Shown: positions 14,292-54,621, counted from the first letter of the stretch. The stretch is DNA of 64,000 nucleotides from Hydrogenimonas sp. SS33 (GCF_040436365.1 NZ_AP026369.1:434001-498000); one strand, 5' to 3'. Numbers and translations are program-made. Notes: generated by a model from the sequence alone, not told the origin.

Positions 14292-14348
14292 CACCTCTAT
14301 TTGACGGGTCTGTGCCCGTATTCAATCCGACCGACAGGCGCTATTTTC

Positions 14349-36115: not shown

Positions 36116-36141
36116 TCTCAAACCCCCATATTACGGGCATT

Positions 36142-37669: not shown

Positions 37670-38058
37670 GTTCTCCTTTTGGATGTCATAAGTGTTTTGG
37701 CTATTTCGATCAGCTCATTCTCTTTCGCCGTAAGGTCATCAACGAGTCTCTCCACGCCTTCGTAGTCATGCTTGCCAAGTTTCGCCTCTGCTCTAAAATC
37801 TTCATTTTTGGTAAGCCACAACTTGAAAAGCCCTCCAAGTCGCCCAAGATCGGCTTTGGCTTTCAATAGTTGATCAACCGTATATTGATCCACTAGGCTT
37901 TGCAGCGGATAGCCCAAAGCAAGCCTACGGATATAGGAGGGCGTTTTGCATCCGCACATTGCCGCTTTAAGTCGCAGGCGTTCTTTTTCTTCACGGGTGA
38001 CTCGCACCATGATGTGTTCCTGGCGTTGCCTTGTCTCCGATTTACGACGCTTTGCCAT
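37666..38058 (-). CDS. TraJ/MobC-like relaxosome protein
   Basis: 130 residues. A basic ribbon-helix-helix N-terminus (MAKRRKSETRQRQEHIMVRVTREEKERL) and KTPSYIRRLALGYPL resemble IncP TraJ and MobC-type oriT-binding proteins. The C-terminal helical part (LLKAKADLGRLGGLFKLWL) fits the same family. In IncP plasmids TraJ recruits the relaxase TraI; no relaxase gene is in the element. The frame is open upstream, but that stretch is opposite-frame parA sequence. Confidence 0.72.
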   Translation of the reverse strand: MAKRRKSETRQRQEHIMVRVTREEKERLRLKAAMCGCKTPSYIRRLALGYPLQSLVDQYTVDQLLKAKADLGRLGGLFKLWLTKNEDFRAEAKLGKHDYEGVERLVDDLTAKENELIEIAKTLMTSKRRT

Positions 38059-38806: not shown

Positions 38807-38820
38807 TTTTACTTCTCCTG

Positions 38821-40092: not shown

Positions 40093-40298
40093 CGCTGCGC
40101 CTCTTTTCTCTTCGCCCTCCGGCGGCGATAGCTCCAGTTGGCATATCCTATGATCACCACGCCCACAATCAGTATCATCCAATCTCCCAGGCTGCTTGGA
40201 TCGGCAACGATCCGAAAAAGGGCATAGACGATGATCCAGGCGGCGATAAAGACCTGGACGAGGTTTTCAACGGTATTTGAGAATTCTTTACTTGTCAT
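40089..40298 (-). CDS. Small two-helix membrane protein
   Basis: 69 residues from MTSKEFSNTVENL with two hydrophobic segments (VFIAAWIIVYALF and DWMILIVGVVIIGYANW) and a basic tail. It sits between the TrbK-like and trbL genes, coupled to trbL by ATGA. I do not recognise a family; a conjugation-pore accessory is likely from context. AGG lies 9 bases upstream of this ATG, and an ATG two codons earlier is possible. Confidence 0.65.
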   Translation of the reverse strand: MTSKEFSNTVENLVQVFIAAWIIVYALFRIVADPSSLGDWMILIVGVVIIGYANWSYRRRRAKRKEAQR

Positions 40299-40308
40299 AA
40301 CCATCCAC

Positions 40309-40482
40309 CTAAAACATCGGCATTTTTTTGCCGCCGCCTTCCGGTAAAAGCTCACTATCCATTGCTTTGGCAGCATCGGATCGTTGGACGGTGCTATTTT
40401 GCTCTTTGGCTTTGCTCTTGCCGTTACAACCGCTCAATACCAGTGTCAGGGTGATAAACGCCAAAATAGAAACTCTTTTCAT
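40309..40482 (-). CDS. TrbK-like small lipoprotein
   Basis: 57 residues with lipobox LVLSGC (Cys 18) after MKRVSILAFITLTL. Its place between trbJ and trbL matches the IncP order trbJ-trbK-trbL, where TrbK is the entry-exclusion lipoprotein. The last 19 residues (AMDSELLPEGGGKKMPMF) closely match the end of the element's TrbJ. AGGAGCAATGAG precedes the ATG. The longer open frame upstream has no support. Confidence 0.72.
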   Translation of the reverse strand: MKRVSILAFITLTLVLSGCNGKSKAKEQNSTVQRSDAAKAMDSELLPEGGGKKMPMF

Positions 40483-40554
40483 CTCATTGCTCCTACTAAT
40501 AAAGTTGCTAAAATAGCTCAAGAGATAAGCAGGGAAGACCACATTTTACTTAGA

Positions 40555-40722
40555 TCCCTGTCCTTCTATCGAAGGACAAATCTCAAAGGAGTCTGTCACC
40601 TGCTTGCAATCCCGATAGGTTGATTGGGCGCCAAGCTCCCGTCATGATGGAGACAGGATCATGGCAGGTGCCTGCTTATCTGTTGAGCTTTCGTTCGGTT
40701 CTTGAAAGAGGAGGAATGCAAG
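40555..40722 (+). ncRNA. Candidate bridge-RNA region of the IS110 element
   Basis: Non-coding left end of an IS110 element, where the family encodes its bridge RNA. A perfect hairpin TGTCCTTC/GAAGGACA (40559-40578) is followed by a larger stem CACCTGC (40597-40603)/GCAGGTG (40664-40670) enclosing a ~60-nt internal loop region. The size (~170 nt) fits. Guide loops were not matched to the flanks, so this is positional inference. Confidence 0.45.
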
Positions 40723-41922
40723 ATGCGATACTTTCTTGGAATCGACGTCTCCAAGAGCAGTTTCGATATCGCGCTTCTTGATGGACAAAGCGGCCAGATC
40801 CGTCACGAGAAGCTCTCCATGGACAAAGAGGGCTTTAATGCGCTGATGGCGCATCTGAAACCTCTTGAGAAGGAGGAGCTCTTTGTCGTGATGGAGTCGA
40901 CCGGCATCTACCATCTGCCCCTGCTTTCGTTTCTGCTGGAGTGTGGCTTTGTCTGCAGCGTGGTCAACCCCACGCTGCTAAAGCATCACATCCAATCCTC
41001 TACACTCAGAAAGAGCAAGACCGACCGCAAGGACGCCCTGGCCATCGCGCGCTTCGCTTCGCTACACTACAGGGAGCTCAAGCCCATCGAGGGCACGCAG
41101 GCTCTGCAGAGCATCCGGCCCCTGCTCAAAGAGCGCGAAGCGCTCAGCAAGGAGGTGGCCAGGCTGAAAACCGACATCAAGGCGTTGGTCGATCAGCTCT
41201 TTCCCGAACTTTCAAAGAACACCAATATCTATACCCGGAGCATATTACATCTGCTCCTGCAAGCCCCTTCACGCAAGCGCGTGAGGAACTTGAAGGAGAA
41301 GAAGATCCAGCGCATTTTGGACGAAGCCAGCGGCAACAAGGCGACGCTTTCGGCCAAAGAGATCCTGGCCTGGGCCAAAGGCTCCATCGGCCTCAACAAC
41401 CCCCATCTCGAAACCGTGCTGCAATCGAAAATCCGACGGCTCCAGCATGTCCAGGCGGAGATCGAAACCCTCGAAAAGGCCATCGCCGAAGCGGTGAGAG
41501 ATGAGCATCTCGACGACTCCATCGATACACTCACCTCCATTCCCGGTGTCGGCTCCACCACCGCTACCCACTTCGTCGCCCACATCGGCTCCATTGAACG
41601 TTTCACCTCGGTCAAACAGCTTTGTGCCTTCGTCGGTTTCGATCCCTCCATTCGCCAAAGCGGCAGCTCCATCGATGGCAGAGGACACATCTCCAAAAGA
41701 GGACACGCCTCACTCAGGCGTACTCTTTGGCAGATGAGCCTGGGTGTCATTCGCCACATTCCCAAATACAGGGCCTACTACGAAAAAAAGCGCAAAGAAG
41801 GCAAAGCCTTCAAGCAGGCTGTCGTCGCTGTGGGCAATAAACTGCTTCGTCTCATATTCACGCTGTTAAAGAACCAAACCCAATTCGACCACAAATTGGC
41901 CGAAGTCGGTGTCACTTCGTGA
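40723..41922 (+). CDS. IS110-family transposase (DEDD/RuvC-like)
   Basis: 399 residues. The N-terminal DEDD domain shows YFLGIDVSKSSFDIA (Asp 7), VVMESTGIYHLPL (Glu ~55) and KTDRKDALAIARFA (Asp-Asp ~99). The C-terminal Tnp20 domain has SIPGVGSTTATHFVAHIG and GSSIDGRGHISKRGHASLRR, including the conserved Ser. ATG 40723 is preceded by GAGGAGG; a slightly earlier start is open. Looks intact. Confidence 0.93.
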   Translation: MRYFLGIDVSKSSFDIALLDGQSGQIRHEKLSMDKEGFNALMAHLKPLEKEELFVVMESTGIYHLPLLSFLLECGFVCSVVNPTLLKHHIQSSTLRKSKTDRKDALAIARFASLHYRELKPIEGTQALQSIRPLLKEREALSKEVARLKTDIKALVDQLFPELSKNTNIYTRSILHLLLQAPSRKRVRNLKEKKIQRILDEASGNKATLSAKEILAWAKGSIGLNNPHLETVLQSKIRRLQHVQAEIETLEKAIAEAVRDEHLDDSIDTLTSIPGVGSTTATHFVAHIGSIERFTSVKQLCAFVGFDPSIRQSGSSIDGRGHISKRGHASLRRTLWQMSLGVIRHIPKYRAYYEKKRKEGKAFKQAVVAVGNKLLRLIFTLLKNQTQFDHKLAEVGVTS

Positions 41923-41971
41923 CATCCAAACTCTTTATTTGGGGGTGGGTTTGTTTATAGTTGACTCCTTT

Positions 41972-42775
41972 TTAAAATCCGGGCATCTCATGCCCGCCGC
42001 CTTCGGGAAGCAGGTCACTGTCCATCGCTTTGATTTCAGCCTGGCGGGCTGCCTCGGTGTCGTTTTGGTGGGCGATCCACTCCGCTTGCAGGTTGGCTTG
42101 GGTCATTACGGTCTTTTGCAGCTTTTGGATCGATTCTGTTTGATGGTAAGCCAGCTGATTAGCAACGGCAATAGCGGCTTCGGTACCTTTGGCGCTGTTC
42201 ATGGCATTACGCAAACGCCCCATGAAGTGCTGATCGTTTTGCAAGTCACGCTCCTGGATCCCCAACGACTTAAGCGCATTGAGTGCGGTATCTTTGGTGG
42301 TTCGGTAGATGTTTTTATACACAGAGGAAAAATCCAGGTTGCCGCCCTGGGCTTGTTGCAGATATTGATCGTAACCTTTGAAGGATCGCTCAAAGCGTTG
42401 ATTGATATTGGCGGCGGTGTAGGCGATAGCCTGCCCCTGCTCAAGTGACTGCTTCATCTGCTGCGCCATATTGAGAAACTGGTTTTTCATATTCTCAGGC
42501 AACTGACGGATATTTTGAGCCATTAAACGAAGTCCCATAACTTTACGCTGCCACTCCTGCCACTGGATGGCATATTGTTGCAGTTGGGTGTAATATTGCT
42601 GCAACTGCTTTGTATAAGATGCCGCACGATCTCCAATGTCCGCCGCCCATTGAGCATCTTGTGTTACCTCCAACGCCCCGCCGAAGCCGCCGACACTTCC
42701 GGCATTTGCCGAAGTGGTAAAAAGCATCGCTACCGCTGCTGCCGAAAGTCCGAGTTTTTTCATTGTGTTTTTCAT
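41972..42775 (-). CDS. trbJ: Conjugal transfer protein TrbJ
   Basis: 267 residues with a cleavable signal (LSAAAVAMLFTTSANAG), then TrbJ-type helices: QWAADIGDRAASYTKQLQQY, NIRQLPENMKNQF, LQNDQHFMGRLRNAM, ANQLAYHQTESIQKLQ. TrbJ/VirB5-like proteins act in the periplasm in pilus or pore assembly. GGAG lies upstream of ATG 42775; the earlier in-frame start is unsupported. The C-terminus AMDSDLLPEGGGHEMPGF is shared with the TrbK-like lipoprotein. Confidence 0.88.
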   Translation of the reverse strand: MKNTMKKLGLSAAAVAMLFTTSANAGSVGGFGGALEVTQDAQWAADIGDRAASYTKQLQQYYTQLQQYAIQWQEWQRKVMGLRLMAQNIRQLPENMKNQFLNMAQQMKQSLEQGQAIAYTAANINQRFERSFKGYDQYLQQAQGGNLDFSSVYKNIYRTTKDTALNALKSLGIQERDLQNDQHFMGRLRNAMNSAKGTEAAIAVANQLAYHQTESIQKLQKTVMTQANLQAEWIAHQNDTEAARQAEIKAMDSDLLPEGGGHEMPGF

Positions 42776-42806
42776 CGTTTGTTTATCTCCTTTCTTGTTT
42801 GATGAA

Positions 42807-43085
42807 TTAAAGATCCAGGATCGGATCCATGCTGGTGATAGACTGATATGCCCTTGTGAGCTTTGCGTTAGCTCTGTGTAGGGCGATACGAAGCGCATCT
42901 TCTTTGCTCTGCGGCTGGTACTGGCTGAATAGATAATTAGCCAGGCGATTGGAATAGGTATCCAATATTTGGTCATACTCGATCATCTCATTGAGCCGGT
43001 CTTGAGATACGTTCAAGATTGATGCCGCCGCATCCCGGTCGCCGCAGCACCAGCCGATAAACTGCTTGGTTGTGATTTGTTTCAA
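42807..43085 (-). CDS. Hypothetical protein of the element operon
   Basis: 92 residues, soluble and mainly helical (CCGDRDAAASILNVSQDRLNEMI, KEDALRIALHRANAKLTRAY). The first part could be a small DNA-binding helix-turn-helix. I do not recognise it. It overlaps the upstream gene by 4 bp and precedes trbJ by 31 bp. Confidence 0.55.
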   Translation of the reverse strand: MKQITTKQFIGWCCGDRDAAASILNVSQDRLNEMIEYDQILDTYSNRLANYLFSQYQPQSKEDALRIALHRANAKLTRAYQSITSMDPILDL

Positions 43086-43783
43086 GATTTTTCTCCTTTT
43101 TGTTGATTTAGGAAGTCGATAGGGAGTTTCCCTTTGCTTGCAAGATCATATAGCCCGCTCCATATCTCTTTGGCTCTTGTTCCAGGAAACGTTTTGCCGG
43201 TACGACGGTCATAGAGCATCCCATCACTGCTTATGCCAATTTCCAATAGTTGACCTGTATATTTGGAATTGGTCAATGCAATTGTCTGGTTTGTGAAAGC
43301 TTCTCGCATATAGTTAACAAAGGATTCTTGAGATTTCAAAAAATCAGTATTCTTAGAGAGAGTTTTTTCTTTTTTATCTTTTCTTTTGTTCTCTTTTATT
43401 ATTTGTGTTGGTTTTGCCGCCTCCGGTATCACCGCCTCCGGTTTTTCCGCCTCCGGCATTTCAGTAGTCGGTAAAACATCCCGTGAAACGGCACCTTCTG
43501 AGTCAAAAACCCAAATTGTTTCAAATTTACCACTTTGATTCCTAGTCTGTACTGTAATGAGAAAGTCTTCTTCACGAAGTTCTTTGAGTGCCTTTCTTAA
43601 TGTGTCACGCCCTTCTTTCATATTTTGCAAGATAAATTCAAAGTTAAGTTCAAATCCATCTTGATGTAATTCAAGCCAAGCACCTAAGCCTTTAGCGCGT
43701 AAAGATATTTTTGGATTAGATAACAGTTTGCGGCTTACTGTTGCATAGCGAACTTTTTTCTTTTTCAATCGTATTTTCGCCAT
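43082..43783 (-). CDS. Helix-turn-helix replication-initiator-like protein
   Basis: 233 residues. Residues ~10-85 form a winged-helix (YATVSRKLLSNPKISLRAKGL...LQNMKEGRDTLRKALKEL) as in plasmid and phage replication or primosome-loading proteins. A Pro/Glu-rich linker with imperfect PEAxxPEA repeats (~108-125) leads to a C-terminal DnaD-like helical part. It could support replication of the excised element. Overlaps both neighbours by 4 bp. Confidence 0.6.
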   Translation of the reverse strand: MAKIRLKKKKVRYATVSRKLLSNPKISLRAKGLGAWLELHQDGFELNFEFILQNMKEGRDTLRKALKELREEDFLITVQTRNQSGKFETIWVFDSEGAVSRDVLPTTEMPEAEKPEAVIPEAAKPTQIIKENKRKDKKEKTLSKNTDFLKSQESFVNYMREAFTNQTIALTNSKYTGQLLEIGISSDGMLYDRRTGKTFPGTRAKEIWSGLYDLASKGKLPIDFLNQQKGEKS

Positions 43784-43971
43784 CAGTCAACCTTTGGCTC
43801 TCTGATATTATTATTAATGTAGTCTTCGATCCATTCCAACTTATAGACCACCCGTCTACCTATCTTCGCATACTTTATTTTTCTTTTTGAACGCAATGTG
43901 TTTTGCGTTTTAACGGGAATCGGCGGCAAACCATTAATCCCCATAGCTACTTCTTGAGGAGAAATCCACAT
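43783..43971 (-). CDS. AlpA/MerR-type small DNA-binding protein
   Basis: 62 residues with a compact winged helix (SPQEVAMGING...RSKRKIKYAKIGRRVVYKLEWIEDYI). First gene of the leftward transfer operon, downstream of a palindromic promoter region, so probably its regulator or an excision activator. Confidence 0.65.
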   Translation of the reverse strand: MWISPQEVAMGINGLPPIPVKTQNTLRSKRKIKYAKIGRRVVYKLEWIEDYINNNIREPKVD

Positions 43972-43995
43972 TTCAAGTCCCTCCAGTTCTATATA

Positions 43996-44082
43996 TTAGA
44001 ATATAATTCTAAATAGCATTGTATCTTCCAAAACTTGAATATATTCTTAAATATTCCATATTTTTCGATATAATTCTAAATA
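43996..44082. promoter_or_regulatory. Operator region between divergent element genes
   Basis: Perfect inverted repeat TTAGAAT-ATA-ATTCTAA (43996-44012), and the 15-bp direct repeat ATATAATTCTAAATA at 44001-44015 and 44068-44082. The repeats include TATAAT-like boxes, so binding would occlude both divergent promoters. A phage-like control switch is inferred. Confidence 0.6.
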
Positions 44083-44103
44083 TTGATCGATATGGAGATT
44101 TGT

Positions 44104-44643
44104 ATGGCTGTCAAAAAAGGGAAAGAGTATAAAGAGGTAGCTTCTAAAATTTTAGGGTGCACTTTGGCAAGTTACTATAATTGGGATAAGCAGAACCGTC
44201 CAATCATTGCTCTTCTGGAGAAATATTTTTCCAAAGAAGACCTTGAAGAGTTTTTATTGTATGGCAAAGTAAGAAAATTGGAAGACAGTACAATAGATCC
44301 AACAATTATAGATCATGCTTACTATTCTCTCAAGCCCAAACTAAAAGAAGTTTTTGGAGGTCCTATATTAGGCCCAAACAAGATATACACCAAAGGAGCC
44401 AAAGAGATACTCATCGACGTGTTGAAAAAAATCTCTCCAAAGGACACTTTTTTTACTATCGAAAATGCCAAAGATAGATTGCTGGATCGTATTAGCGAAG
44501 AAGAGCTCAAGTGGCTTGCCATTAAAAACTCTGCCAAAAGGGATCTACTTAGCCACTACATCAAAGAGAACTTTTCAAATGCCGAGATTCTTGCGATGGT
44601 TCAAAGAAGCGATGAGACTGTAGAGTTTTTAAAGAAAATTTGA
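44104..44643 (+). CDS. Probable HTH regulator of the element
   Basis: 179 residues. The N-terminal ~55 residues (YKEVASKILGCTLASYYNWDKQNRPIIALLEKYF) form a helix-turn-helix of the type in the element's other small regulators, where a Trp-Lys/Asp follows the recognition helix. The rest is helical and unrecognised. GGAG lies 8 bases before ATG 44104. It is transcribed away from the transfer operon across the shared operator, so a repressor role is likely. Confidence 0.55.
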   Translation: MAVKKGKEYKEVASKILGCTLASYYNWDKQNRPIIALLEKYFSKEDLEEFLLYGKVRKLEDSTIDPTIIDHAYYSLKPKLKEVFGGPILGPNKIYTKGAKEILIDVLKKISPKDTFFTIENAKDRLLDRISEEELKWLAIKNSAKRDLLSHYIKENFSNAEILAMVQRSDETVEFLKKI

Positions 44644-44650
44644 TTAACTT

Positions 44651-45916
44651 TTATTTCTTTTCTAATATGATCACACTCTCTCGTAATGTATCAATATCTG
44701 GACTATACTTAGTTTTTCTTTTTCTGATTTCACGCAATACACCTATTTCTTTTAATTTCCATCCATGTTTGGTTGCTATGTCTGCCAAAATTAAATCTAC
44801 CGGTATTTCTGCATTAGCATATGCTGAATTGGAAACCACCATCCATAAGTGTGCATACTTATTAGCTTTTTGACTTAATTGATAAAAAACCCCCTTCATA
44901 TCTTCAAAATAAGCCAAAACCATTTGAGGTATTCGTGGATGCATTAAGGACTCTTTGTTAGACATTAATCTTTGGTAAACATCTTTTAAAATCAAACTAT
45001 CTATATAGTCACTCTTTGGAGTTTTCCATTTTGCCTGGACATGAGAACGCACAGTTTTCAATCTTAATTTGTATAACTCCTCTGAAGAGGAAATAAACTT
45101 GCCTAGAAATAATTCAGGTCTATATATATCTGTATAATCAAATGTATTTAAATATGGTGGAGATGTAACAATAAGATCAAAATATGAACTTTGTTTTTTT
45201 AAAATTGATCTTGAATCTGAATTGTATATTTTAGAACTGCTCCTAATTATTGTATGTTCTATATCTTCTACAATCTTCTTGTAATGCTTTTCAAATTCAA
45301 TGAGAAAATCGTTTTTAGAAAACTTTAATTCTTTCCAAGCACTTTTATACCGCAAGCATTTACCATCCTTCCTTGCATTGGATACATTCATAATTGAGTT
45401 AATAAGTGCAAGGCGTAACATCTTAGATGCATTCGACCTATGGTTTTCTAAATAGCTATACCCTCCATAAAAAGAGCGTAATACATCAAGATTAAAAAGC
45501 CATTTGTCTTTTCCTGATAACTCAGTAAAAGTTGAATACTTTTCTAATTGGCTATATTCTCTACCTAATATAGCATTTTCATATGTTTCCTCAAAGAGCT
45601 TTGAAAGAACTTTAGGATTTGTATTTAGTGTTTTGGTTTTGGCAACAAATGCAGTAAAGGGATTAACCTCTATACCAACGGAAGGTATGTTTTGTTCTGC
45701 AGCCGTTAAAGTAACTGTACCACTACCATTAAATGGGTCTAATATCATATGCTCTGAAGTAAGTTCTCTACTTTCTATTGCAGATCTTACTAAATTTGGA
45801 GAAAACCCCTCCTTATAATAATACCAACGATGCCTTGCAAAGTTATCCGATTCTACAAAATTTGAAGTTCCTTGATCTTTAAGCTCAAAATTATGGTTTA
45901 TATATTTAGCTGTCAT
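44651..45916 (-). CDS. DNA methyltransferase (N4/N6 type) of the SMC cluster
   Basis: 421 residues. SAM-binding motif I MILDPFNGSGTVTL (~57) precedes catalytic motif IV LIVTSPPYLNTFDY (~245), so this is not the beta-class order. TSPPY is common in N4-cytosine enzymes. The region between (~100-240) would hold target recognition. Last gene of a four-gene operon with nuclease, middle component and SMC ATPase, 3 bp after the nuclease stop. Probably protects host DNA from the neighbouring nuclease; the site cannot be predicted. Confidence 0.85.
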   Translation of the reverse strand: MTAKYINHNFELKDQGTSNFVESDNFARHRWYYYKEGFSPNLVRSAIESRELTSEHMILDPFNGSGTVTLTAAEQNIPSVGIEVNPFTAFVAKTKTLNTNPKVLSKLFEETYENAILGREYSQLEKYSTFTELSGKDKWLFNLDVLRSFYGGYSYLENHRSNASKMLRLALINSIMNVSNARKDGKCLRYKSAWKELKFSKNDFLIEFEKHYKKIVEDIEHTIIRSSSKIYNSDSRSILKKQSSYFDLIVTSPPYLNTFDYTDIYRPELFLGKFISSSEELYKLRLKTVRSHVQAKWKTPKSDYIDSLILKDVYQRLMSNKESLMHPRIPQMVLAYFEDMKGVFYQLSQKANKYAHLWMVVSNSAYANAEIPVDLILADIATKHGWKLKEIGVLREIRKRKTKYSPDIDTLRESVIILEKK

Positions 45917-45919
45917 CGA

Positions 45920-46978
45920 TTACTCACAAATAGGTTCTGCAAACATTCTGAATGGCTTTTCTATATTTGTATAAGTTTCCCAGTATTTTCTATCATCTTG
46001 TATGTCAAGTTTTTTATTTTCATAATATAGACCATCTTCACGATTTATGCTATGCTTAATTTCCAAAGATATATTTCTTCTACGACAATCTATTACCACT
46101 AAATAGCCTTTTGTTATAATATCCGGGCTATCTGAATTATCATAATCTATATATTCTTTTATCTGACTCATACCATCATTTGCACGACCATTTGAGTAAC
46201 TTGTACCAATCGTTTCCTCTTCTTTTACAGATTGCCCCATCCATTTTATTTCAATTAACGCAGCACGATTTGCTTCTTTCCAAAAAACTCTTATATCTAC
46301 AGGTTTACTTGCATTTAAATTATATTCACGAACAACATTGATTCCACGAATTCTACTAGATAAAAACTCTTTCAATGATATTTGCATACACGCTTCAGGT
46401 TTATTTTTTAAATATATCCTCTTATCATCAAACCAACATTGCTTTAAGAGTTCACACGATGTATGTCTTACTTTGTTATTTTTGTAATCAAGCAGAGCCT
46501 CTTGCAAATCATGATACTGTAGTGCATATATACTTGGGCAACTAAAACTATTTTGAATCCTGATCACATTCCCATTTACTGAATAATATTCATTTTTATT
46601 AGATCCATCATATACATAAGCAATAAAGTCATTATTTGTATTTATAAGTTCATCAATATCTTTATTGTTCCAAATTACAGGCAAGGAGGCTTCATCATCA
46701 GTTAATTTAAAAATCAGAGTAGCATATTCATGACCTAATATGGAAGGATCATAATATCTATTTCCATCAGACTCATCAAATAAAATTCTTCCTTCTGAGA
46801 AGTCAATAAAAACAACTATTTGTCCATTGTAATGAGATGGTTCAATATTTCTATATAAATCTTTTACAAATTTAACTATATTATTTGTTGCTGATAAATA
46901 TTTACTATCTCCTCCTGTCTGTTTTACTATATCCATAATATAAGTTTCTCTTGAAACTGCTAAACGTTCTTCTGGCAT
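45920..46978 (-). CDS. PD-(D/E)XK-type nuclease candidate
   Basis: 352 residues, no named family recognised. Residues ~235-262 (KPVDIRVFW...RAALIEIKWMG) fit the PD-(D/E)XK core: Asp in a strand, then E-x-K in the next. The N-terminal half has mixed alpha/beta structure with a conserved-looking FIDFSEGRILFD. It is one base after the 193-residue gene and just before the methyltransferase gene, consistent with the cutting subunit of the system. Confidence 0.6.
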   Translation of the reverse strand: MPEERLAVSRETYIMDIVKQTGGDSKYLSATNNIVKFVKDLYRNIEPSHYNGQIVVFIDFSEGRILFDESDGNRYYDPSILGHEYATLIFKLTDDEASLPVIWNNKDIDELINTNNDFIAYVYDGSNKNEYYSVNGNVIRIQNSFSCPSIYALQYHDLQEALLDYKNNKVRHTSCELLKQCWFDDKRIYLKNKPEACMQISLKEFLSSRIRGINVVREYNLNASKPVDIRVFWKEANRAALIEIKWMGQSVKEEETIGTSYSNGRANDGMSQIKEYIDYDNSDSPDIITKGYLVVIDCRRRNISLEIKHSINREDGLYYENKKLDIQDDRKYWETYTNIEKPFRMFAEPICE

Positions 46979-46979
46979 T

Positions 46980-47561
46980 TTAATTCTCCATATGAACTTG
47001 CTTTAAGAGATAATCCACCCATGAAACGGCTGGTAGCAGTAATTCATCTGATGGAGCTCCTATCTTAGTGGTTATTTCTTTTAGTTTTTCATTACTATAT
47101 GTCACCCAATCTTGATTGTTTGTTTGTTGTTCTTTTTTTAAGCCAGGATCATTTAGAAGAGCCTCTTTGGTTTCTTTGTATGGAATCAAAATGCTTGTAG
47201 AACATGCAGCATCAAGATATTTCTCTCTTTTTTTATTTGTAGGAAGTTTTTTAAACTTGTTAAATTCATCTGTACCTCTACCGGTAATAATCAAAAAACT
47301 TCCTGTATCTTCAAAATAACCATTTTTTTCATTATTTTTAATAGCGTCACTTAATACCTTTGCATGAGGATAGCCATCGCTATCTATAGTAAATTTATAC
47401 CCCCAATTAGCAGTTGGAGCCCCTTTGTAGTGAAATAAAATAGCTGAAAAATATGCGAACAAGTGAATCTCTTTTTCTTCAAAACCATCTAAAAAGTTAT
47501 CTAATTTATGCGCTATCGAAAGGCAGTCAAAATATGCCTCTGGTAAAATTTGGTTGAACAT
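46980..47561 (-). CDS. Middle component of SMC/ABC three-component-like system
   Basis: 193 residues, unrecognised by motif. Mostly helical N-terminus (ILPEAYFDCLSIAHKLDNFLDGF) and a mixed centre (LFHYKGAPTANWGYKFTID, GSFLIITGRGTDEF). Its size and place between an SMC-like ATPase gene and a nuclease gene match the middle component of ABC-three-component and Lamassu (LmuC) systems. ATG directly abuts the ATPase stop (TAAATG). Confidence 0.55.
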   Translation of the reverse strand: MFNQILPEAYFDCLSIAHKLDNFLDGFEEKEIHLFAYFSAILFHYKGAPTANWGYKFTIDSDGYPHAKVLSDAIKNNEKNGYFEDTGSFLIITGRGTDEFNKFKKLPTNKKREKYLDAACSTSILIPYKETKEALLNDPGLKKEQQTNNQDWVTYSNEKLKEITTKIGAPSDELLLPAVSWVDYLLKQVHMEN

Positions 47562-49550
47562 TTATTTCCCCCTTAATGCTCTATCTATATTCTCATATAC
47601 TTCATTAAATAGAACTTCCCCTTCTTTTTGTATCTCCGTCATATCCGTCCATTCAAGCATTCTTCTAAAATACATTTTTTCTTCACCACATCTTTTTGCC
47701 AATGCTACCAATAATTGAGACGCATTGATATTTGCAGTCATAATAATATTTTGATTGTAATCTACCACAAAATCAGCAAACATTTGACCTACTCGATTTT
47801 CATAAGCTATATCCAACGATCCTTCAGGTGTATCTATTAGAAGTGTGGCTTCATTTCCTTTTTTTGACAAATAGATTGCCAATGTCATTCTAAGAGCAAT
47901 ATCTAAAAAAAATCTTTGGCTCTCAGAAAGCTGATAAGATTCTGTCCTTCTTGTCCCTAAAAGCTCAAAGTTAAGTTTAATATTTTTTGCACCTTTTTTT
48001 TGAAAGTATATATTTAAATCGAGCCCAATAAAGCTTTTTGACAATTTTTTAAATAATGGAACAAAATATGTTTCAGCTCTTTTGTAGTTTTCCTCAACAT
48101 TTTTTAAAAGGTTTTCATATTCAGGCTTAAGTTGATCTCTTTGCTTGTAATAGTCATCTGCTTTTTTATCTTCTTTTTCAAATCTATCTTTATATTCACT
48201 AAGAAGAGAGTCTGTTATTGTATCTCCTGTTGATTTGAAACTTATAGAAGAATTTTCTTTTTCAAACTTCTCTAATTTTTCTTTTGACGAGATATAATTA
48301 TATTCAGCTTTTTCAAGTTCTACTTTTTTTGCATCAGATTCAAAAATCAGACTTTCCAAATCTTTATTTTTCCCTTCAATCTTCTTATCTATCTCTTCTA
48401 GTTGATGTAAAATTTGATTTTGAACCTTATTTTTATCGTTGTCTATCTTGGTATCACAAATAGGGCATTGATCCTGATATAAGTTCTTTTCAATTTTTTC
48501 AATAATATGATGACCTTTTGCACCACATAGGAAACATTCATGATTTGCTTTAGAAAATTGAACATATTGGTTATTCAATAATCTTGATCTTGGCTCAGAG
48601 TATTGAGAAAACAATCTTTTGTATTGAATTTTGTATTGAAGTATTTCCGAATTAATGATATTTTGTCTTTTCAGTAGTGTGTCATACTCAGATTCTATAT
48701 TATGGAATTTCTTTTCGGACTCCTCAACAATATTTATTAGCAGATCATATTCTTTTTTAAGATCATCCCAGTTGAGCAACTCCATTTCTTTTTTTGTATT
48801 TAAAAGCATTTCCATTTCTTTTTTGATTTGGGTGGCTTGCCACCTGGCGTTTCTAGCGTGAGATTCAAGAACTTCCATCTCTTTTTTTAGTTCCAGAATC
48901 CTTTCTGTATCATCCAAAGAATCATTAAATGCCATTGAAAGTGTGTTGGTCGATGCTTTTTCATTCCAAAATAACATCCGTCTATTTTCATCAAATGTCA
49001 AAACATAAAGTTGAAAGAAAACAAAATTTTCAAAGCTTCCAATACCCATATCATTAGCTAATGATGATTGGTATATACGATTTAACTCTTCTGAACTTGA
49101 GTTTGTTTCGTTTAGTATAGATTCAGTTTTATTTTTATCTAAATTGTTGTAAATTTCAAAAGATCTAAGAGCATTTCTATTATCAAATCCACGAACTATT
49201 CTATATGTCTTTTTATTGATTTCAAAAGTGATTTCTATTTCAGCCTTATCGTAATCTCTGACATTTATTCTACCTTTAAAATAGTCTTCTGTGTAACTTT
49301 TATTTTCTGTTTCAATCTCTTTTGGCAATAAAACATCTTTATTTGGTGCCAAAACCAAACCGGTCAAACCATAGTTAATAATATTTAAGAATGTTGTTTT
49401 TCCAAGCCCATTTGCACCTGCTAAACAATAGACCCCATTGTTGATATTCTCTTCTACTTCCGTAGTTTTTTCATTTTTAGAATATAGAGAAAAATTTCGT
49501 ATTTTTATTTTTTGGATATTTATAAAATTAAATCTCCCTTTACTTTTCAA
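47562..49550 (-). CDS. Rad50/SMC-like ATPase with zinc-finger hook
   Basis: 662 residues. Walker A GANGLGKTTFLN (~44) after the IKIRNFSLYS start typical of RecF/Rad50 ATPases; two coiled coils (~225-320 and ~375-490) flank a hook-like turn with CFLCGAKGHH and QCPICDTKID (four cysteines). The C-terminal lobe has signature YQLSESQRFFLDIALRM (~545) and Walker B with D-loop TLLIDTPEGSLD (~585). Start is TTG with GGGGA upstream. First gene of the operon; expected to sense or load on DNA and license the nuclease. Very AT-rich compared with the core genome. Confidence 0.85.
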   Translation of the reverse strand: MKSKGRFNFINIQKIKIRNFSLYSKNEKTTEVEENINNGVYCLAGANGLGKTTFLNIINYGLTGLVLAPNKDVLLPKEIETENKSYTEDYFKGRINVRDYDKAEIEITFEINKKTYRIVRGFDNRNALRSFEIYNNLDKNKTESILNETNSSSEELNRIYQSSLANDMGIGSFENFVFFQLYVLTFDENRRMLFWNEKASTNTLSMAFNDSLDDTERILELKKEMEVLESHARNARWQATQIKKEMEMLLNTKKEMELLNWDDLKKEYDLLINIVEESEKKFHNIESEYDTLLKRQNIINSEILQYKIQYKRLFSQYSEPRSRLLNNQYVQFSKANHECFLCGAKGHHIIEKIEKNLYQDQCPICDTKIDNDKNKVQNQILHQLEEIDKKIEGKNKDLESLIFESDAKKVELEKAEYNYISSKEKLEKFEKENSSISFKSTGDTITDSLLSEYKDRFEKEDKKADDYYKQRDQLKPEYENLLKNVEENYKRAETYFVPLFKKLSKSFIGLDLNIYFQKKGAKNIKLNFELLGTRRTESYQLSESQRFFLDIALRMTLAIYLSKKGNEATLLIDTPEGSLDIAYENRVGQMFADFVVDYNQNIIMTANINASQLLVALAKRCGEEKMYFRRMLEWTDMTEIQKEGEVLFNEVYENIDRALRGK

Positions 49551-49887
49551 AATTTCCCCTTATCTATTTACTATTATAGTATTTTGGCTTATATAGACTT
49601 CAATCTTCTTGAGCATCTCAAGATGCGAATACCCTTCAGGACGTTAATGCTATGGCTTCGGCTTGCCGACGGTATAGCATTCACACTTCCTGCCTTTTGA
49701 TTCAAACACACATTAGAACATTTTAGCAAACTTTGGCTAAACCCTCTACCTCAATGGGCTAAAATCGGCTATAGCCGCCTAAAATCGTAATAAGGTGCAA
49801 TACCATTTGCCTTAGTTTGCTTAAATTTGCTAAGATTTGATATAATGTGCTAAAATGAACTAAAATGCAATATAGGGGAGCTAAAGC
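49551..49887. promoter_or_regulatory. 337-bp gap: candidate oriT, promoters and GCTAAAAT repeats
   Basis: Contains a -10-like ATTATA (49573-49578, minus strand) for the SMC operon and an inverted repeat AATGCTAT/ATAGCATT (49646-49653, 49674-49681) with a GC-rich interior. It is followed after 6 bases by TCCTGCC, resembling IncP-type nick regions. Then a series of (G)CTAAAAT motifs near 49757, 49778, 49849 and 49860 leads to the TraK-like gene. As IncP oriT lies beside traK, this is the best oriT candidate. Confidence 0.45.
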
Positions 49888-50289
49888 ATGGCGGCGATGC
49901 GTGGAATGCACAAAGTGGAGTTTTTTACCCATCTCGATGAGATAAAAACGATGTATCAAAACGGCTATGTCGTCTTGAAAATTCTCTATGAAGAGCTAAA
50001 GAAAAAATATAACTGGTCAATGTCGTATTGGTCATTTTGTAAGTACATGAAAGAAGAGGTACTTGCCACAGATTCTGACACCACGCCAAAGAGCAGGGGA
50101 GAGACCCAGGCTAAAAAAGAGGCTGAAATTTATATGAAAAATTTAGAGGCAAAGGAACCCGTATCAGCTGAAAAATCTGAGACAGTTACAAAACCAGTTG
50201 AGCCGGACTCTGAGAAAGAGCGTAAACGCCGTATCTCCCAGGAACTATTGGAACGCAATGATGCTTTCATTGGAGACAAGTGGAAATAA
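49888..50289 (+). CDS. TraK-like oriT-binding protein
   Basis: 133 residues. The N-terminus (VEFFTHLDEIKTMYQNGYVVLKILYEELKKKY...MSYWSFCKYMKE) matches the TraK/DUF5338 pattern: helices followed by an SMSYxxFxxY recognition segment. The C-terminal half is charged and probably disordered. IncP TraK binds and bends oriT DNA; the repeats just upstream could be its sites. GGGGAGC precedes ATG 49888; later ATGs at codons 4 and 7 are possible. Confidence 0.65.
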   Translation: MAAMRGMHKVEFFTHLDEIKTMYQNGYVVLKILYEELKKKYNWSMSYWSFCKYMKEEVLATDSDTTPKSRGETQAKKEAEIYMKNLEAKEPVSAEKSETVTKPVEPDSEKERKRRISQELLERNDAFIGDKWK

Positions 50290-50317
50290 CTCCACAGTTT
50301 TGTAGTCATATAAAACA

Positions 50318-50563
50318 CTACATCTTTTCCTCAAGGTCCGTCCAGGGCTTGGCTGCATCTTTTAATTTCTTTGCAGCCGCTTGATAGTCTATATCTTTGA
50401 GGTCTAAGCCTTGAACTTCATTTATCCATACCTGGACAAATTTGTTTTTGGCAGCCTCAAACTGTTTTGTGTCGATTCCATATTTGACTCTCAATCTTGA
50501 GAGAGATGCCCTCTCAGAGCTGTATATCTCTCTTAGTACATCATATTCCATCGGTGTTGCCAT
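50318..50563 (-). CDS. Hypothetical protein, tandem paralogue 2
   Basis: 81 residues beginning MATPMEYDVLREIYSSERASLSRL. It shares about half its residues with the gene immediately upstream: both start MATPMEYD, and both have EVK/EVQ..DLKDIDYQAA and DAAKPW. Helical, soluble, unknown function. A product of tandem duplication in the element. Confidence 0.65.
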   Translation of the reverse strand: MATPMEYDVLREIYSSERASLSRLRVKYGIDTKQFEAAKNKFVQVWINEVQGLDLKDIDYQAAAKKLKDAAKPWTDLEEKM

Positions 50564-50574
50564 TCGGACTCCTT

Positions 50575-50814
50575 TTAGATATTAAGACTCATCCAGGGCT
50601 TAGCCGCATTTCTCATATTTTGGGCAGCTGCTTGGTAGTCAATCTCTTTAAGATCCTTTCGTTTGACTTCATTGAGCCATATCTGGACAAAGTTGTTTTC
50701 AGCCTCTTTGAATTGTGCTGCATCGATAACTTGTTGTGTCTCTACTCTTGTGAGTGCTGCCATCGCAGAGCTATAAATCTCTCTTAGCGTGTCGTATTCC
50801 ATCGGTGTTGCCAT
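50575..50814 (-). CDS. Hypothetical protein, tandem paralogue 1
   Basis: 79 residues (MATPMEYDTLREIYSSAMAALTRV...DLKEIDYQAAAQNMRNAAKPW), paralogous to the next gene 11 bp downstream. Function unknown. Its ATG overlaps the stop of the upstream RHH gene by one base (TAATG). Confidence 0.65.
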   Translation of the reverse strand: MATPMEYDTLREIYSSAMAALTRVETQQVIDAAQFKEAENNFVQIWLNEVKRKDLKEIDYQAAAQNMRNAAKPWMSLNI

Positions 50815-51218
50815 TACCGCTCCTTCTGTTGAAATTGATCCAAAAGCAAACTCACCATTTGCGATAGATTCAGCCCCAGGGCTTTGGCTTGAGCTGAGAG
50901 CCGTTCATGCACTGCTTTATCCAACGTTACCTGAGTACGCTTGTGCCGGTTGCGAGATTTGCCCACCCGCATAGCTACCCGCAGCTTTCCAAGCTGATCT
51001 GCGTCGATATAGGTTGTGATCCAATCATTGAGGGCTTCAAGTTGGGATTCATCCACCGGCAGAGCATCGTCAAACTTCTCTAACGCTTCACGGGCTTGCT
51101 CTTTATGTTTAGATTCACGCCAAAAAGAGGGGCTTTTCTCAAAGCTGCGACGTAGATACGCCAGGGCAATGGTGTATTCCTCTTCGTCTCTGATCCGCCA
51201 CCGGTTGGATCGCTGCAT
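50814..51218 (-). CDS. Ribbon-helix-helix protein
   Basis: 134 residues from MQRSNRWRIRDEEEY. The C-terminal ~45 residues (KRTQVTLDKAVHERLSAQAKALGLNLSQMVSLLLDQF) form a ribbon-helix-helix DNA-binding domain; the N-terminal part is helical. It may regulate its own operon via the palindrome at 51235-51251 or act in mobilisation (MobC-like). Confidence 0.65.
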   Translation of the reverse strand: MQRSNRWRIRDEEEYTIALAYLRRSFEKSPSFWRESKHKEQAREALEKFDDALPVDESQLEALNDWITTYIDADQLGKLRVAMRVGKSRNRHKRTQVTLDKAVHERLSAQAKALGLNLSQMVSLLLDQFQQKER

Positions 51219-51234
51219 TGTCACTCCTATATTA

Positions 51235-51251
51235 ATGTTACATTGTAACAT
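51235..51251. promoter_or_regulatory. 17-bp palindrome ATGTTACATTGTAACAT
   Basis: Perfect odd palindrome directly upstream of the RHH gene, 16 bp before its start codon; likely operator. Confidence 0.55.
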
Positions 51252-51276
51252 ATCATCCTTTATGAATTTATAAGTC

Positions 51277-51314
51277 GTCAATTTGACTATTTTTTAAAAA
51301 GTCGTTAAAATGAC
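51277..51314. promoter_or_regulatory. Operator pair of nucleotidyltransferase module 1
   Basis: GTCAATTTGAC, 16 bp, GTTAAAATGAC, just upstream of the HTH gene at 51341. The same two sequences with the same 16-bp spacing occur at 53242-53279. Confidence 0.7.
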
Positions 51315-51340
51315 GATAATTGAGGAATAAAAGGAAAGTT

Positions 51341-51760
51341 ATGCAAAAGATAGATCACACACTTTTTATCCATACGCTTAAAGCCCACGGTATTACCCAA
51401 AAAGCATTTGCCGAATATGCGAAGATTCCCTACGATACCGTAACCGGTTGGAAGAAAAAAGGCAAAGTGCCTGCATACGCTATGGTCATCGCCAAAGATA
51501 TGGCGTATCGTATGCGACTCGATGAGCAAACACGTAAAACGCTTCAACGTCGGCATAAACGAAGCAATCTTGAAGTCATAGGGCTTGACAAAACTGAGCA
51601 AAAGCGTATAGAAGCAGCATTTTGGGGCACAAACTATACCGCCGGTGAAATCATCGAAAATGCCAAAAAAGGTGACAAACGCTTCATGCAAAGGCTCAAA
51701 GAGAATCTACCCGAAACATTGCAACGAAAAGCATTGAGTGCTCAAGTGAAACACTGTTGA
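51341..51760 (+). CDS. HTH antitoxin-like regulator, module 1
   Basis: 139 residues from MQKIDHTLFIHTLKAHG. The N-terminal domain (ITQKAFAEYAKIPYDTVTGWKKKGKVPAYAM) is a helix-turn-helix nearly identical in pattern to the first gene of module 2. The C-terminal half differs. It precedes a small gene and an AbiEii-type nucleotidyltransferase gene; antitoxin or repressor is inferred. ATG 51341 follows AAAGGAAAG. Confidence 0.65.
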   Translation: MQKIDHTLFIHTLKAHGITQKAFAEYAKIPYDTVTGWKKKGKVPAYAMVIAKDMAYRMRLDEQTRKTLQRRHKRSNLEVIGLDKTEQKRIEAAFWGTNYTAGEIIENAKKGDKRFMQRLKENLPETLQRKALSAQVKHC

Positions 51761-51823
51761 AAAATTATCCATTCACTTAGAATATGCTATAATAGTAAAA
51801 AATAATGATGAAAGGAGGCGGTC

Positions 51824-52129
51824 ATGCTGCACTATAGACGACGCAACTCAACCGAACCGGCACCGGCAAGACGCATGAACCGTCATCCGTTGCTAACCTA
51901 TCTCAACTGGTCTTATGATCGGAGCAGACATCTTAATGCACAGCAGCTGCGGGAGATACTGACACAGTATGATGAGCGGTATGCCCATCTGTATATGAGA
52001 CTTTTTAATGAAGTGCCCAGAGATGTTGTCTCTTCCTATTTACGTCAGGAGAGGATAGATAGCAGCGTACTTGCAGATATTTACCGGGCGATGAGCCGGT
52101 TGGGGATCGATCTACGCCCCTTTGAGTAA
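51824..52129 (+). CDS. Small protein of module 1
   Basis: 101 residues, basic N-terminus (MLHYRRRNSTEPAPARRMNRH) and a helical body (LNAQQLREILTQYDERYAHLYMRLF). Not recognised. Its stop overlaps the nucleotidyltransferase ATG (TAATG), so it is cotranslated and may be the direct antitoxin. AAGGAGG precedes the start. Confidence 0.6.
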   Translation: MLHYRRRNSTEPAPARRMNRHPLLTYLNWSYDRSRHLNAQQLREILTQYDERYAHLYMRLFNEVPRDVVSSYLRQERIDSSVLADIYRAMSRLGIDLRPFE

Positions 52130-53007
52130 TGCGTTACGACTTCTCCGAACAATCCGAACTTTTCCATATTGCACTTGCGATCCTCGAAGATTACACGATT
52201 GAGAGTTGGTCATTTGGTGGGGGAACGGCACTCTCATCGCTTTATTACCGGCATCGTATGTCCTACGATATTGATATATTTGTTGAGGAGTATGGTGAGA
52301 TTCAACGTCTTTTGGCGTTTCAAGAAGAGATCGCCGGGAACCTTGCTATTGATAGTAGCCATATCCAAGCCTCGCCAACCGGCGTGACCTTCATTCTCGA
52401 AGATGAATCGCACGGCTTGAAACTCGATTTTGTCTATTCTCCGGCATTGACTGAGGATCCTTTTGTAGTCAAAGAGGTATTTGGGGTGTCCGATGTCAAA
52501 GCCCAAACACCCCAGGAGATAATCGCCAAAAAGTTGAAATTTCGGGAAAAGGCGACGATCCGGGATTTTGTCGATTATGCGATTGCCGAGGAGAGAGATC
52601 GGGTTTTGAGCCGGCTCAAAAGCCAGGGGATCGTGGATATAGATCGCTACTTTGATGTCATTAACAAATTTGATTCACTTGCGAAGCATATTTTTGATGA
52701 AGAGCTTCGATGGCTCATGCCGAAAGTGAAACGAAGCAAAGATGACTTTGCCCGAACGATACATGGCGTTATGCAGCCGGGAGAAACCATCACTGTAGCA
52801 GTGGATCATACCGGAGAGGTTGTTGCGTTTGACGAGTTTATCGAGCCTTATCGAGCACTTTATGCCGAACTTGGAGATTTCAAGATCTATACAATCCCCA
52901 ACACCGGCTTGGAGTATCGGGATCTATTGGAGATGGATGAGAGTCAAATCGATGCGTTGGCGTCATTGGAGAAAGCTTCTGAGAAGTCATATGGATTGAA
53001 TATTTAA
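52129..53007 (+). CDS. AbiEii/AbiGii-type nucleotidyltransferase, module 1
   Basis: 292 residues. The nucleotidyltransferase motif WSFGGGTALSSLYYRHRMSYDIDIFV (GGTxL, DxD, ~24-49) and a later catalytic Asp in LKLDFVYSP match AbiEii toxins, which transfer nucleotides to tRNA and arrest growth. A C-terminal extension (~190-292) goes beyond the core. Probably the toxin of a toxin-antitoxin or abortive-infection pair. Confidence 0.8.
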   Translation: MRYDFSEQSELFHIALAILEDYTIESWSFGGGTALSSLYYRHRMSYDIDIFVEEYGEIQRLLAFQEEIAGNLAIDSSHIQASPTGVTFILEDESHGLKLDFVYSPALTEDPFVVKEVFGVSDVKAQTPQEIIAKKLKFREKATIRDFVDYAIAEERDRVLSRLKSQGIVDIDRYFDVINKFDSLAKHIFDEELRWLMPKVKRSKDDFARTIHGVMQPGETITVAVDHTGEVVAFDEFIEPYRALYAELGDFKIYTIPNTGLEYRDLLEMDESQIDALASLEKASEKSYGLNI

Positions 53008-53093
53008 TTTGATGTAAATATTCCCCCTACTATAAATCATTCTTCACCGGATCGCCTACTTACCGAGCCAATTTAACTATTCTCGACGAAAAC

Positions 53094-53125
53094 TTTCTAG
53101 AAAAAAGTATCTTTTTTTCTAGAAA
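53094..53125 (+). terminator. Hairpin with T tract after module 1
   Basis: TTTCTAGAAAAAAG and its complement separated by TAT form a ~14-bp stem with a T-rich descending arm, in the 293-bp gap between the two modules. Probably a bidirectional terminator. The rest of the gap is AT-rich with no gene visible. Confidence 0.5.
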
Positions 53126-53241
53126 ACGCTAAGTTATGGTAGAAGAAGGTGTAAAAGTTAGTCCAAAATCTTGAAATATAATGCTGGCAATCTTTGAAAT
53201 GTAAAGAGTGATGAATTTCTATTTTGAGACTTGCATTAGTT

Positions 53242-53279
53242 GTCAATTTGACAAGTAAAATGAAATTGGTTAAAATGAC
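53242..53279. promoter_or_regulatory. Operator pair of nucleotidyltransferase module 2
   Basis: GTCAATTTGAC (within a 15-bp perfect palindrome TTGTCAATTTGACAA), 16 bp, GTTAAAATGAC, 22 bp before the HTH gene. Same sequences and spacing as in module 1. Confidence 0.7.
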
Positions 53280-53300
53280 AACTAGAAAAGGATGATTGTC

Positions 53301-53756
53301 ATGATGAATGTATCCCACAAAAATATCTCCAACCAATACTTTGAATCGGTCTTAAAACGCAAAGGTCTTAGTAAAAAAGCCTTTGCCGAATATGCCGGTA
53401 TCCCATATTTCACTGTCGCCGGCTGGAAGAAAAAGGGCGAGGTGCCTACTTATGCGATGGTGATCCTAAATCAGATGCCGACTCACAAAAAGAGTGTGAC
53501 CGCGGCTGATCTCATCAAGGCAGGGCTTCCGAGAGCGGTATTATGGAATAACCAGAGTGACAAGGAAGTACCGGTCGATATCTTCATCGTTTCAACCCTT
53601 CAAAAAGCCTACAATGATTTCGTCATCGACAAGCTTACTGAATACTTCGGCAAAGAGAGTGTATTGACTGCACTTTTGAAGTATAAGGATCGCATCTCGG
53701 AACGTTTAATCAACCAAGTGACAAAATATCTCCAAGAACTGCCGAGATCTGCATGA
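53301..53756 (+). CDS. HTH antitoxin-like regulator, module 2
   Basis: 151 residues. N-terminal helix-turn-helix (LSKKAFAEYAGIPYFTVAGWKKKGEVPTYAM) parallels module 1 almost word for word; the C-terminal part (STLQKAYNDFVIDKLTEYF) differs. AAGGA lies 9 bases upstream of ATG 53301; an ATG follows directly. The stop overlaps the nucleotidyltransferase gene (ATGA). Confidence 0.65.
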   Translation: MMNVSHKNISNQYFESVLKRKGLSKKAFAEYAGIPYFTVAGWKKKGEVPTYAMVILNQMPTHKKSVTAADLIKAGLPRAVLWNNQSDKEVPVDIFIVSTLQKAYNDFVIDKLTEYFGKESVLTALLKYKDRISERLINQVTKYLQELPRSA

Positions 53757-54433
53757 TAAACCGGCAAACAAAAAGCGTTCTGCAAAGGTTTTCAAAGATT
53801 CCCCTCTTTGAAGAGCATCGTGCGATACTTATCGGCGGTACTGCGTTGGCGTATCATCTGGGGCATCGTGAGAGTTTTGATCTTGATATCTGTTTTCCCT
53901 TTGCTGAGGCATTACCCCCTTTGGCGTTTTTGGAAGAGTTTGATGAAGTGATTCCCATCGCCTTTGATCAAGGCATTATTGATACAGCCATCAATGAGGG
54001 CGGGGATATCGAAGAGGTAATGCAGCGTTACATCGTTGATGGAGTCAAAGTTGATTTTGTGATCAATCCCTCAAGCAACATCTATGAAAGTGAAATACTC
54101 CAAAATGATGAGGGACTACGGTTTGGGACATTGAGAATCGCCTCGATAGATGCGGTCTTCAAGCTCAAATCATTACTGCTTCTCGATCGTAATAAAGTAA
54201 GGGATCTATACGATATCGTCTATTTGTTGAGAGAACGGGACTTTCAAGGCAAACAGATTCTTGATACGATACGGCATTACCGCATTACCTATCTTCCTAA
54301 ACATATTATCCAGCTCATTGAGGCAAAAGAGGAGGATCCTTTCGACATGGAAGGGATTGAAAATCCAAAGATGGACTTAACCGAATATGATGAGCTAAAA
54401 ACTTATCTTTTGCAGGCAATCTTAAAAGAGTAA
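53753..54433 (+). CDS. AbiEii-type nucleotidyltransferase, module 2
   Basis: 226 residues. Motif AILIGGTALAYHLGHRESFDLDICF (~24-48) and the third Asp in VKVDFVINPSS (~100), then ASIDAVFKLKSLLLLDRNKVRDLYDIVYLL, typical of AbiEii-family proteins. Shorter than the module 1 protein. Toxin role inferred from family and pairing. Confidence 0.8.
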   Translation: MINRQTKSVLQRFSKIPLFEEHRAILIGGTALAYHLGHRESFDLDICFPFAEALPPLAFLEEFDEVIPIAFDQGIIDTAINEGGDIEEVMQRYIVDGVKVDFVINPSSNIYESEILQNDEGLRFGTLRIASIDAVFKLKSLLLLDRNKVRDLYDIVYLLRERDFQGKQILDTIRHYRITYLPKHIIQLIEAKEEDPFDMEGIENPKMDLTEYDELKTYLLQAILKE

Positions 54434-54447
54434 TAGACAACTTGCGG

Positions 54448-54473
54448 GTGTGCCCAAAACTGTGCCCATTTTT
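54448..54473 (+). repeat. Right arm-type repeat pair (GTGCCCA x2)
   Basis: GTGTGCCCAAAACTGTGCCC then ATTTTT, matching the repeat at the 3' end of int in sequence, orientation and T tract. It lies 82 bp inside the right att repeat. Confidence 0.65.
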
Positions 54474-54555
54474 GCGCTTAAAACTTCATTTTGTCAAAAT
54501 TTCTAAAACATGAAATGCCCATAGCACGGGGCTTTGAGGGAAATTGATACTCTAA

Positions 54556-54580
54556 CGGTGTCCTCATAATAGACCCGTAT
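54556..54580. other. attR, right copy of 25-bp att repeat
   Basis: Exact copy of 36085-36109. Immediately outside it lies GTTGAACCTATTCAT, the complement of the original ybgC start region (ATGAATAGGTTCAAC). Confidence 0.88.
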
Positions 54581-54621
54581 GTTGAACCTATTCATGTAAT
54601 GACCCCTCCATTTCTGCACAC

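Follow-up and report, generated by a model that had tools for sequence, protein, structure and literature searches.

Genes and motifs of the locus

The window, a 64,000-nucleotide stretch of Hydrogenimonas sp. SS33 (NZ_AP026369.1:434001-498000), carries at positions 44651-49550 the four-gene locus described here. Calling of open reading frames (ORFs) in the window gave four minus-strand genes separated by gaps of 0, 1 and 3 bp. They encode an SMC/Rad50-like ABC ATPase (SMC), a middle component (MC), a PD-(D/E)XK-type nuclease and a DNA methyltransferase (Table 1). An earlier model's sequence-only reading of this DNA had given the same layout, which our re-check matched exactly. It had also called the region AT-rich; the G + C fraction is indeed 0.30 in the four genes, against 0.48 for the element around them and 0.53 for the window as a whole. 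The SMC ORF begins with a TTG start codon preceded by GGGGA. With the relative in a Nitratifractor metagenome-assembled genome (MAG; G021) as the reference, purifying selection is evident in each of the four genes, the dN/dS values being 0.10 for the methyltransferase, 0.17 for the nuclease, 0.16 for the MC and 0.05 for the C-terminal part of the SMC. The fastest-evolving part of the nuclease in this comparison is residues 60-150.

Table 1 Features of the four-gene locus and its carrier element (window coordinates).
Feature	Position	Strand	Details
Putative att repeat, left element end	36085-36112	.	28-nt direct repeat
Tyrosine integrase	36142-37317	-	Pfam Phage_integrase 4.2e-32
Convergent gene, function not assigned	44083-44643	+	Ends 7 nt from the methyltransferase gene
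N4/N6-type DNA methyltransferase	44651-45916	-	421 aa
Methyltransferase motif IV SPPY (within TSPPY), residues 252-255	45152-45163	-	In the methyltransferase gene
Methyltransferase motif I DPFNGSGT, residues 60-67	45716-45739	-	In the methyltransferase gene
PD-(D/E)XK-type nuclease	45920-46978	-	352 aa; catalytic domain about residues 190-300
Nuclease active-site stretch D228...E243-x-K245	46244-46297	-	D228, E243 and K245 invariant in 12 homologues
Middle component (MC)	46980-47561	-	193 aa; winged helix and C-terminal helices
SMC/Rad50-like ABC ATPase	47562-49550	-	662 aa
Walker B/D-loop DTPEGSLD, residues 573-580	47811-47834	-	Thr at the position of the catalytic Glu of Rad50
Coiled-coil apex, two CxxC pairs (C339-C365)	48456-48536	-	Invariant in 11 homologues
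Walker A GANGLGKTT, residues 45-53	49392-49418	-	Conserved among homologues
Putative att repeat, right element end	54556-54583	.	96% identical to the left copy

The ATPase matches Pfam AAA_23 (8e-9), the PADLOC LmuB model PDLC03859 (7.5e-24) and an SbcC-like PHROG (1.7e-14). A Walker A of the form GxNGxGK(S/T)T, an SESQ signature and an SLD D-loop are conserved among its homologues. The Walker B in 11/11 homologues is D/E-T/A-P-E/D/S, and the window protein has Thr at the position of the catalytic Glu of Rad50. Thr or Ala in place of the Glu that follows the Walker B Asp hints that ATP hydrolysis by the SMC may be slow.

Residues E195, D228, E243, K245, Q272, Y276 and R299 of the nuclease are invariant in 12 divergent homologues. 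Its AlphaFold model has a mean predicted local distance difference test (pLDDT) score of 68, with values mostly of 78-91 across residues 200-290. In this model one helix carries E195, consecutive strands carry D228 and E243/K245, and the helix after them carries Q272/Y276, in an alpha-beta-beta-beta-alpha-beta core; the predicted layout is that of PD-(D/E)XK with a RecB-like QxxxY. Pfam PDDEXK_9 is matched by 2/12 members (best 8e-5), and the weak Foldseek matches include several PD-(D/E)XK enzymes (Kpn2I, Bse634I, MunI, Card1 and Can2). A four-cysteine hook in the ATPase and a PD-(D/E)XK candidate had both been proposed beforehand. The former is borne out by C339, C342, C362 and C365, invariant in 11 divergent homologues, and the latter by the invariant E...D...ExK...QxxxY pattern together with the modelled core topology and the PDDEXK_9 matches.

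The MC is modelled with a pLDDT of 85 as a winged helix plus helices. Its best Foldseek match is 7yk3_D from a DarTG complex (probability 1.00, template-modelling score 0.53, E 0.028), followed by PadR/MarR winged helices. No significant Pfam or NCBIfam family was found for the MC, for which remote homology may lie below the sensitivity of hidden Markov models. Neither the MC nor the nuclease gave a PADLOC match up to E 10 or any NCBIfam or PHROGs match, Pfam hits were insignificant, and PDB sequence searches with either protein returned nothing useful. Single-sequence searches with the MC found no homologues in plasmid records or IMG/VR, and a single-query search with the nuclease found none in plasmid records. 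The methyltransferase matches PADLOC MTase_II PDLC03224 (1.9e-62) and Pfam N6_N4_Mtase (1.1e-8).

Co-occurrence of the four genes and exchange of the methyltransferase

Loci were found through the SMC gene alone, blind to the methyltransferase, and then checked for a nearby methyltransferase of the family seen in the window. One was present within about 4 kb at 12/12 evaluable loci, namely three of Campylobacterota (G000, G021 and G294), the Burkholderia and Azospirillum plasmids and seven IMG/VR contigs; the truncated IMG/VR contig L041 was left out of this count. The 12/12 refers to loci found rather than to independent events, and the taxa and carriers are widely different, spanning alpha- and betaproteobacterial plasmids, Campylobacterota and both GC-rich and AT-rich phage-like contigs. 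For the IMG/VR contigs, assignment to phages or prophages follows that collection and a reading of neighbouring ORFs by eye.

Among 397 Campylobacterota genomes the SMC occurs in three, and these same three have the close methyltransferase. The Nitratifractor relative shares the gene order of the window at 86% for the nuclease, 95% for the methyltransferase and 97% for the MC. The relative in a Sulfurovaceae MAG (G294), at 43-52%, has the same order and adjoins genes for TnsA, TnsB, TniB/TnsC and TniQ. This order recurs in the GC-rich IMG/VR contig L014. A tblastn search of plasmids with just the SMC as query gave two records, from Burkholderia stagnalis and Azospirillum brasilense, and both have the methyltransferase. 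Two divergent SMC-MC-nuclease sets flank one methyltransferase inside a Tn7-like transposon on the former (L017 1793-11916); on the latter the methyltransferase and the MC, together with an SMC that has a frameshift, lie next to Tn7-like genes. Scans of IMG/VR with the SMC alignment gave seven distinct evaluable contigs, with the methyltransferase in 7/7; no further contig came from scans with SMC subclades, so IMG/VR is apparently near saturation at the given sensitivity. No SMC homologues were found in phage records, and the scan of genome contigs gave only two loci, both already known.

An ABC ATPase stands alongside the nuclease at every complete locus. Four arrangements were seen: SMC-MC-nuclease-methyltransferase, methyltransferase-SMC-MC-nuclease, convergent methyltransferase, and split. 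Since the gene order varies, the linkage cannot be put down simply to one block having been inherited. Three loci lie in Tn7-like transposons, and the other carriers are prophages and one integrative element. A methyltransferase drawn from a separate locus would have spoken against the sequence-only reading, and its presence at every SMC-found locus favours that reading; the four-part set recurs in unrelated genomes of Campylobacterota and Burkholderia and in phage-like contigs. Next to the Burkholderia locus with its two sets are genes for an alpha/beta hydrolase and for a caspase-VMAP-C protein.

The SMC and nuclease trees are congruent and contain clades A (window, G294, L014 and L020), B (Burkholderia sets 1 and 2, L019 and L022) and C (L036, L037 and L039), the last with weak support in the nuclease tree. 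The methyltransferase of L019 is sister to that of L014 (100/99), yet its SMC belongs to clade B. The L020 methyltransferase groups with those of clade B, yet its SMC belongs to clade A. Approximately unbiased (AU) tests reject congruence for the methyltransferase tree (p 4.8e-43 and 1.3e-7) and for the SMC tree (p 3.7e-4 and 7e-116), indicating that methyltransferases were swapped among loci. The exchange took place at least twice, and the four-part complement was always kept. That two deep SMC lineages exchanged methyltransferases suggests that they share a target site or that the methyltransferase supplies the specificity, and the swaps leave room for the latter.

Related methyltransferases also occur outside the system. 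Some are cognates of type II restriction-modification (RM) systems, adjoining an AvaI/BsoBI-family enzyme or another annotated type II endonuclease, and others are tandem methyltransferases.

Relation to known systems and proposed function

Lamassu combines a small SMC/Rad50-like ATPase of about 650 aa, a small middle protein and a nuclease effector, and shows a Glu-to-Gln substitution in the Walker B (PMC10586767). The window locus resembles Lamassu and other ABC-three-component (ABC-3C) systems (LmuA-LmuC-LmuB, DdmABC) in its three-part plan of ATPase, middle protein and nuclease. In the broad sense it is an ABC-3C system, with an SMC/ABC ATPase, a middle component and an effector in one operon, the plan that the sequence-only reading had recognised. 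The likeness to Lamassu in particular, also claimed there, was not supported. As a control we collected PDLC03859 matches in 298 Campylobacterota genomes and read 20 neighbourhoods. Three-gene Lamassu-type loci in the order effector-MC-LmuB, with the ATPase last, account for the strongest matches (362-417 bits), and Dnd-type loci for most of those at 75-110 bits. The window SMC scores 83 bits, as Dnd-type ATPases do, so its PADLOC LmuB label is no evidence of Lamassu membership. In four clear LmuB proteins the Walker B reads DQP and CxxC occurs once at most, whereas the window SMC has DTPE and two CxxC. The gene order is reversed in the window, with the SMC first and the nuclease after the MC. 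The window system moreover has a dedicated methyltransferase, of a family that was absent from the neighbourhoods read around true Lamassu loci in the phylum. Neither the nuclease nor the MC of the window matched LmuA or LmuC in PADLOC, even with E values of up to 10 allowed. Membership in Lamassu was therefore rejected on the LmuB score, the Walker B and hook motifs and the gene order. By the features compared, the system follows ABC-3C and Lamassu in plan and RM systems in gene content, and is no member of Lamassu. Elsewhere, a Lamassu-type locus of genome G329 (L073 5012-8767) is followed by genes for a 283-aa protein and, as read by eye, a 5-methylcytosine methyltransferase-like protein, possibly another pairing of SMC and RM.

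Type II RM systems such as AvaI/BsoBI share the methyltransferase family, with motifs I and IV, and a partner with PD-(D/E)XK active-site motifs; the window nuclease differs in that a winged-helix protein and an ATPase of the SMC type accompany it, and type II restriction enzymes need no ATPase. Dnd and Pbe systems (DndD, PbeC) likewise possess a Rad50-like ABC ATPase linked to modification, and Dnd-type ATPases also have a DTP Walker B, but the modification there is with sulfur, whereas here it would be base methylation. No DndC- or DndE-type sulfur-modification genes were found among the four genes with PADLOC, Pfam or NCBIfam, and a Dnd-like system was rejected on this ground. MADS, the methylation-associated defence system, also holds an ATPase and a methyltransferase within a single locus. 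The window SMC matches mad3 weakly (26 bits), and mad3 is a shorter ATPase; among the PADLOC models mad1-mad8 only weak mad3-like and mad8-like ATPase matches were obtained, and the nuclease and MC matched no MADS model. In LlaJI and McrBC-type RM an NTPase, a PD-(D/E)XK nuclease and a methyltransferase work by a similar logic. The NTPase there is an AAA+ GTPase, whereas the window ATPase is of the ABC/SMC type. We found no name for the system in PADLOC, Pfam, NCBIfam, PHROGs or the open papers, and no SMC-methyltransferase-nuclease system is described in the open literature searched; Krishnan et al. 2020, whose abstract is said to state that ABC ATPases can work jointly with RM systems, lies outside this scope. 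A long 2025 review of RM makes no mention of SMC, Lamassu or Rad50.

All the above suggest that the four genes probably constitute one defence system resembling RM, rather than a Lamassu operon with an unrelated methylase next to it. In this system the restriction arm would be an ABC-ATPase three-component complex and self DNA would be protected by the methyltransferase. The observations behind this proposal are that the genes co-occur in distant taxa, keep their catalytic motifs, evolve under purifying selection and travel on mobile elements; from them we infer the formation of a complex, methylation-gated cleavage and the reading of a target site by one of the proteins. A dimer of the SMC/Rad50-like ATPase with its zinc-binding apex might load on DNA and scan or bridge it. 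The winged-helix MC would link the ATPase to the PD-(D/E)XK nuclease, probably contacting DNA as well, and would hold the nuclease inactive until the complex meets foreign DNA. The methyltransferase would mark the host genome so that the host is spared, and unmethylated phage or plasmid DNA would be cut.

SMC-type defence, as in Wadjet and Lamassu, is thought to sense DNA topology or ends, and RM senses methylation. As the sequence-only reading proposed, the system may be a hybrid of DNA-structure sensing and RM. More tentatively, it could represent a class of RM in which an SMC/Rad50-type ATP-driven complex, rather than a sequence-specific endonuclease or helicase translocase, carries out methylation-gated cleavage and an exchangeable methyltransferase gives the specificity. 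If true, the conserved coupling of SMC sensing and methylation would be another route for licensing an SMC nuclease complex. Avoidance of self DNA by SMC sensors, which is unsettled for Lamassu, would become testable, and switching the methyltransferase on or off would provide a genetic switch for studies of SMC activation.

Several results weigh against an RM-like four-gene system. Foldseek lends the nuclease fold weak support (best match Kpn2I, E 0.063), and a single clade of the system methyltransferases is neither rejected nor supported (AU p 0.44). The exchange of methyltransferases fits poorly with a simple type II scheme, where nuclease and methyltransferase read one site independently. 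In the prophage-like contig L026 a related methyltransferase is convergent to a different three-gene set (8974-14410), which encodes a KaiC/AAA-type ATPase of 849 aa and two proteins that match nothing in Pfam. The methyltransferase family is thus not bound to the SMC arm everywhere, and these three genes may be a further restriction arm of several genes that partners it.

Abortive infection of the Lamassu/ABC-3C type, triggered by DNA ends or structures, with the methyltransferase as a companion, standalone or regulatory, that has no part in gating cleavage, appears unlikely. It would suit the shared ATPase/middle/effector plan and protein sizes, the weak LmuB similarity, the two SMC sets per methyltransferase in Burkholderia and the swapping of methyltransferases independently of the SMC arm, but it is opposed by the methyltransferase at 12/12 SMC-found loci and, for its family, beside none of the true Lamassu loci read in the phylum, and by an SMC without LmuB hallmarks. 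We give somewhat less credence still to a type I/III-like complex in which the methyltransferase, as a physical subunit, would recognise the target and pass unmethylated sites to the SMC-MC-nuclease arm. Such a complex would account for swaps between SMC lineages with function kept; however, the methyltransferase is close to autonomous type II enzymes and forms a separate transcription unit in the Burkholderia, Azospirillum and convergent loci. A chance meeting in defence islands of an SMC cassette of three genes with an orphan methyltransferase independent of it, conceivable as both arms are mobile and defence genes cluster, is very improbable and was rejected on the 12/12 co-occurrence in several phyla and four arrangements and on the single strand and 0-3 bp gaps of the window genes.

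Carrier element and neighbouring genes

The locus is carried by an integrative element of about 18.5 kb (36085-54583) whose ends are formed by the direct repeats in Table 1. Besides the integrase, it encodes TrbL-like and ParA-like proteins, an IS110-type transposase and two AbiEii-type proteins. The sequence-only reading had assigned the locus to a mobile element, and the tyrosine integrase, the TrbL-like gene and the flanking 28-nt repeat are in line with this. By our reading of the ORF there, the left repeat coincides with the start of a thioesterase-like gene, the apparent insertion site of the element.

Only the 3' part of the gene convergent to the methyltransferase (from 44329) is common to the Nitratifractor locus, so the methyltransferase side of the cassette appears to move along with it. 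The Nitratifractor version (L011 5618-6709) is twice as long; the gene is a mosaic that marks the edge of the cassette. At the right end of the element, genes for AbiEii-type nucleotidyl transferase toxins lie at 52129-53007 and 53753-54433, and in front of each is a small gene that may encode a helix-turn-helix.

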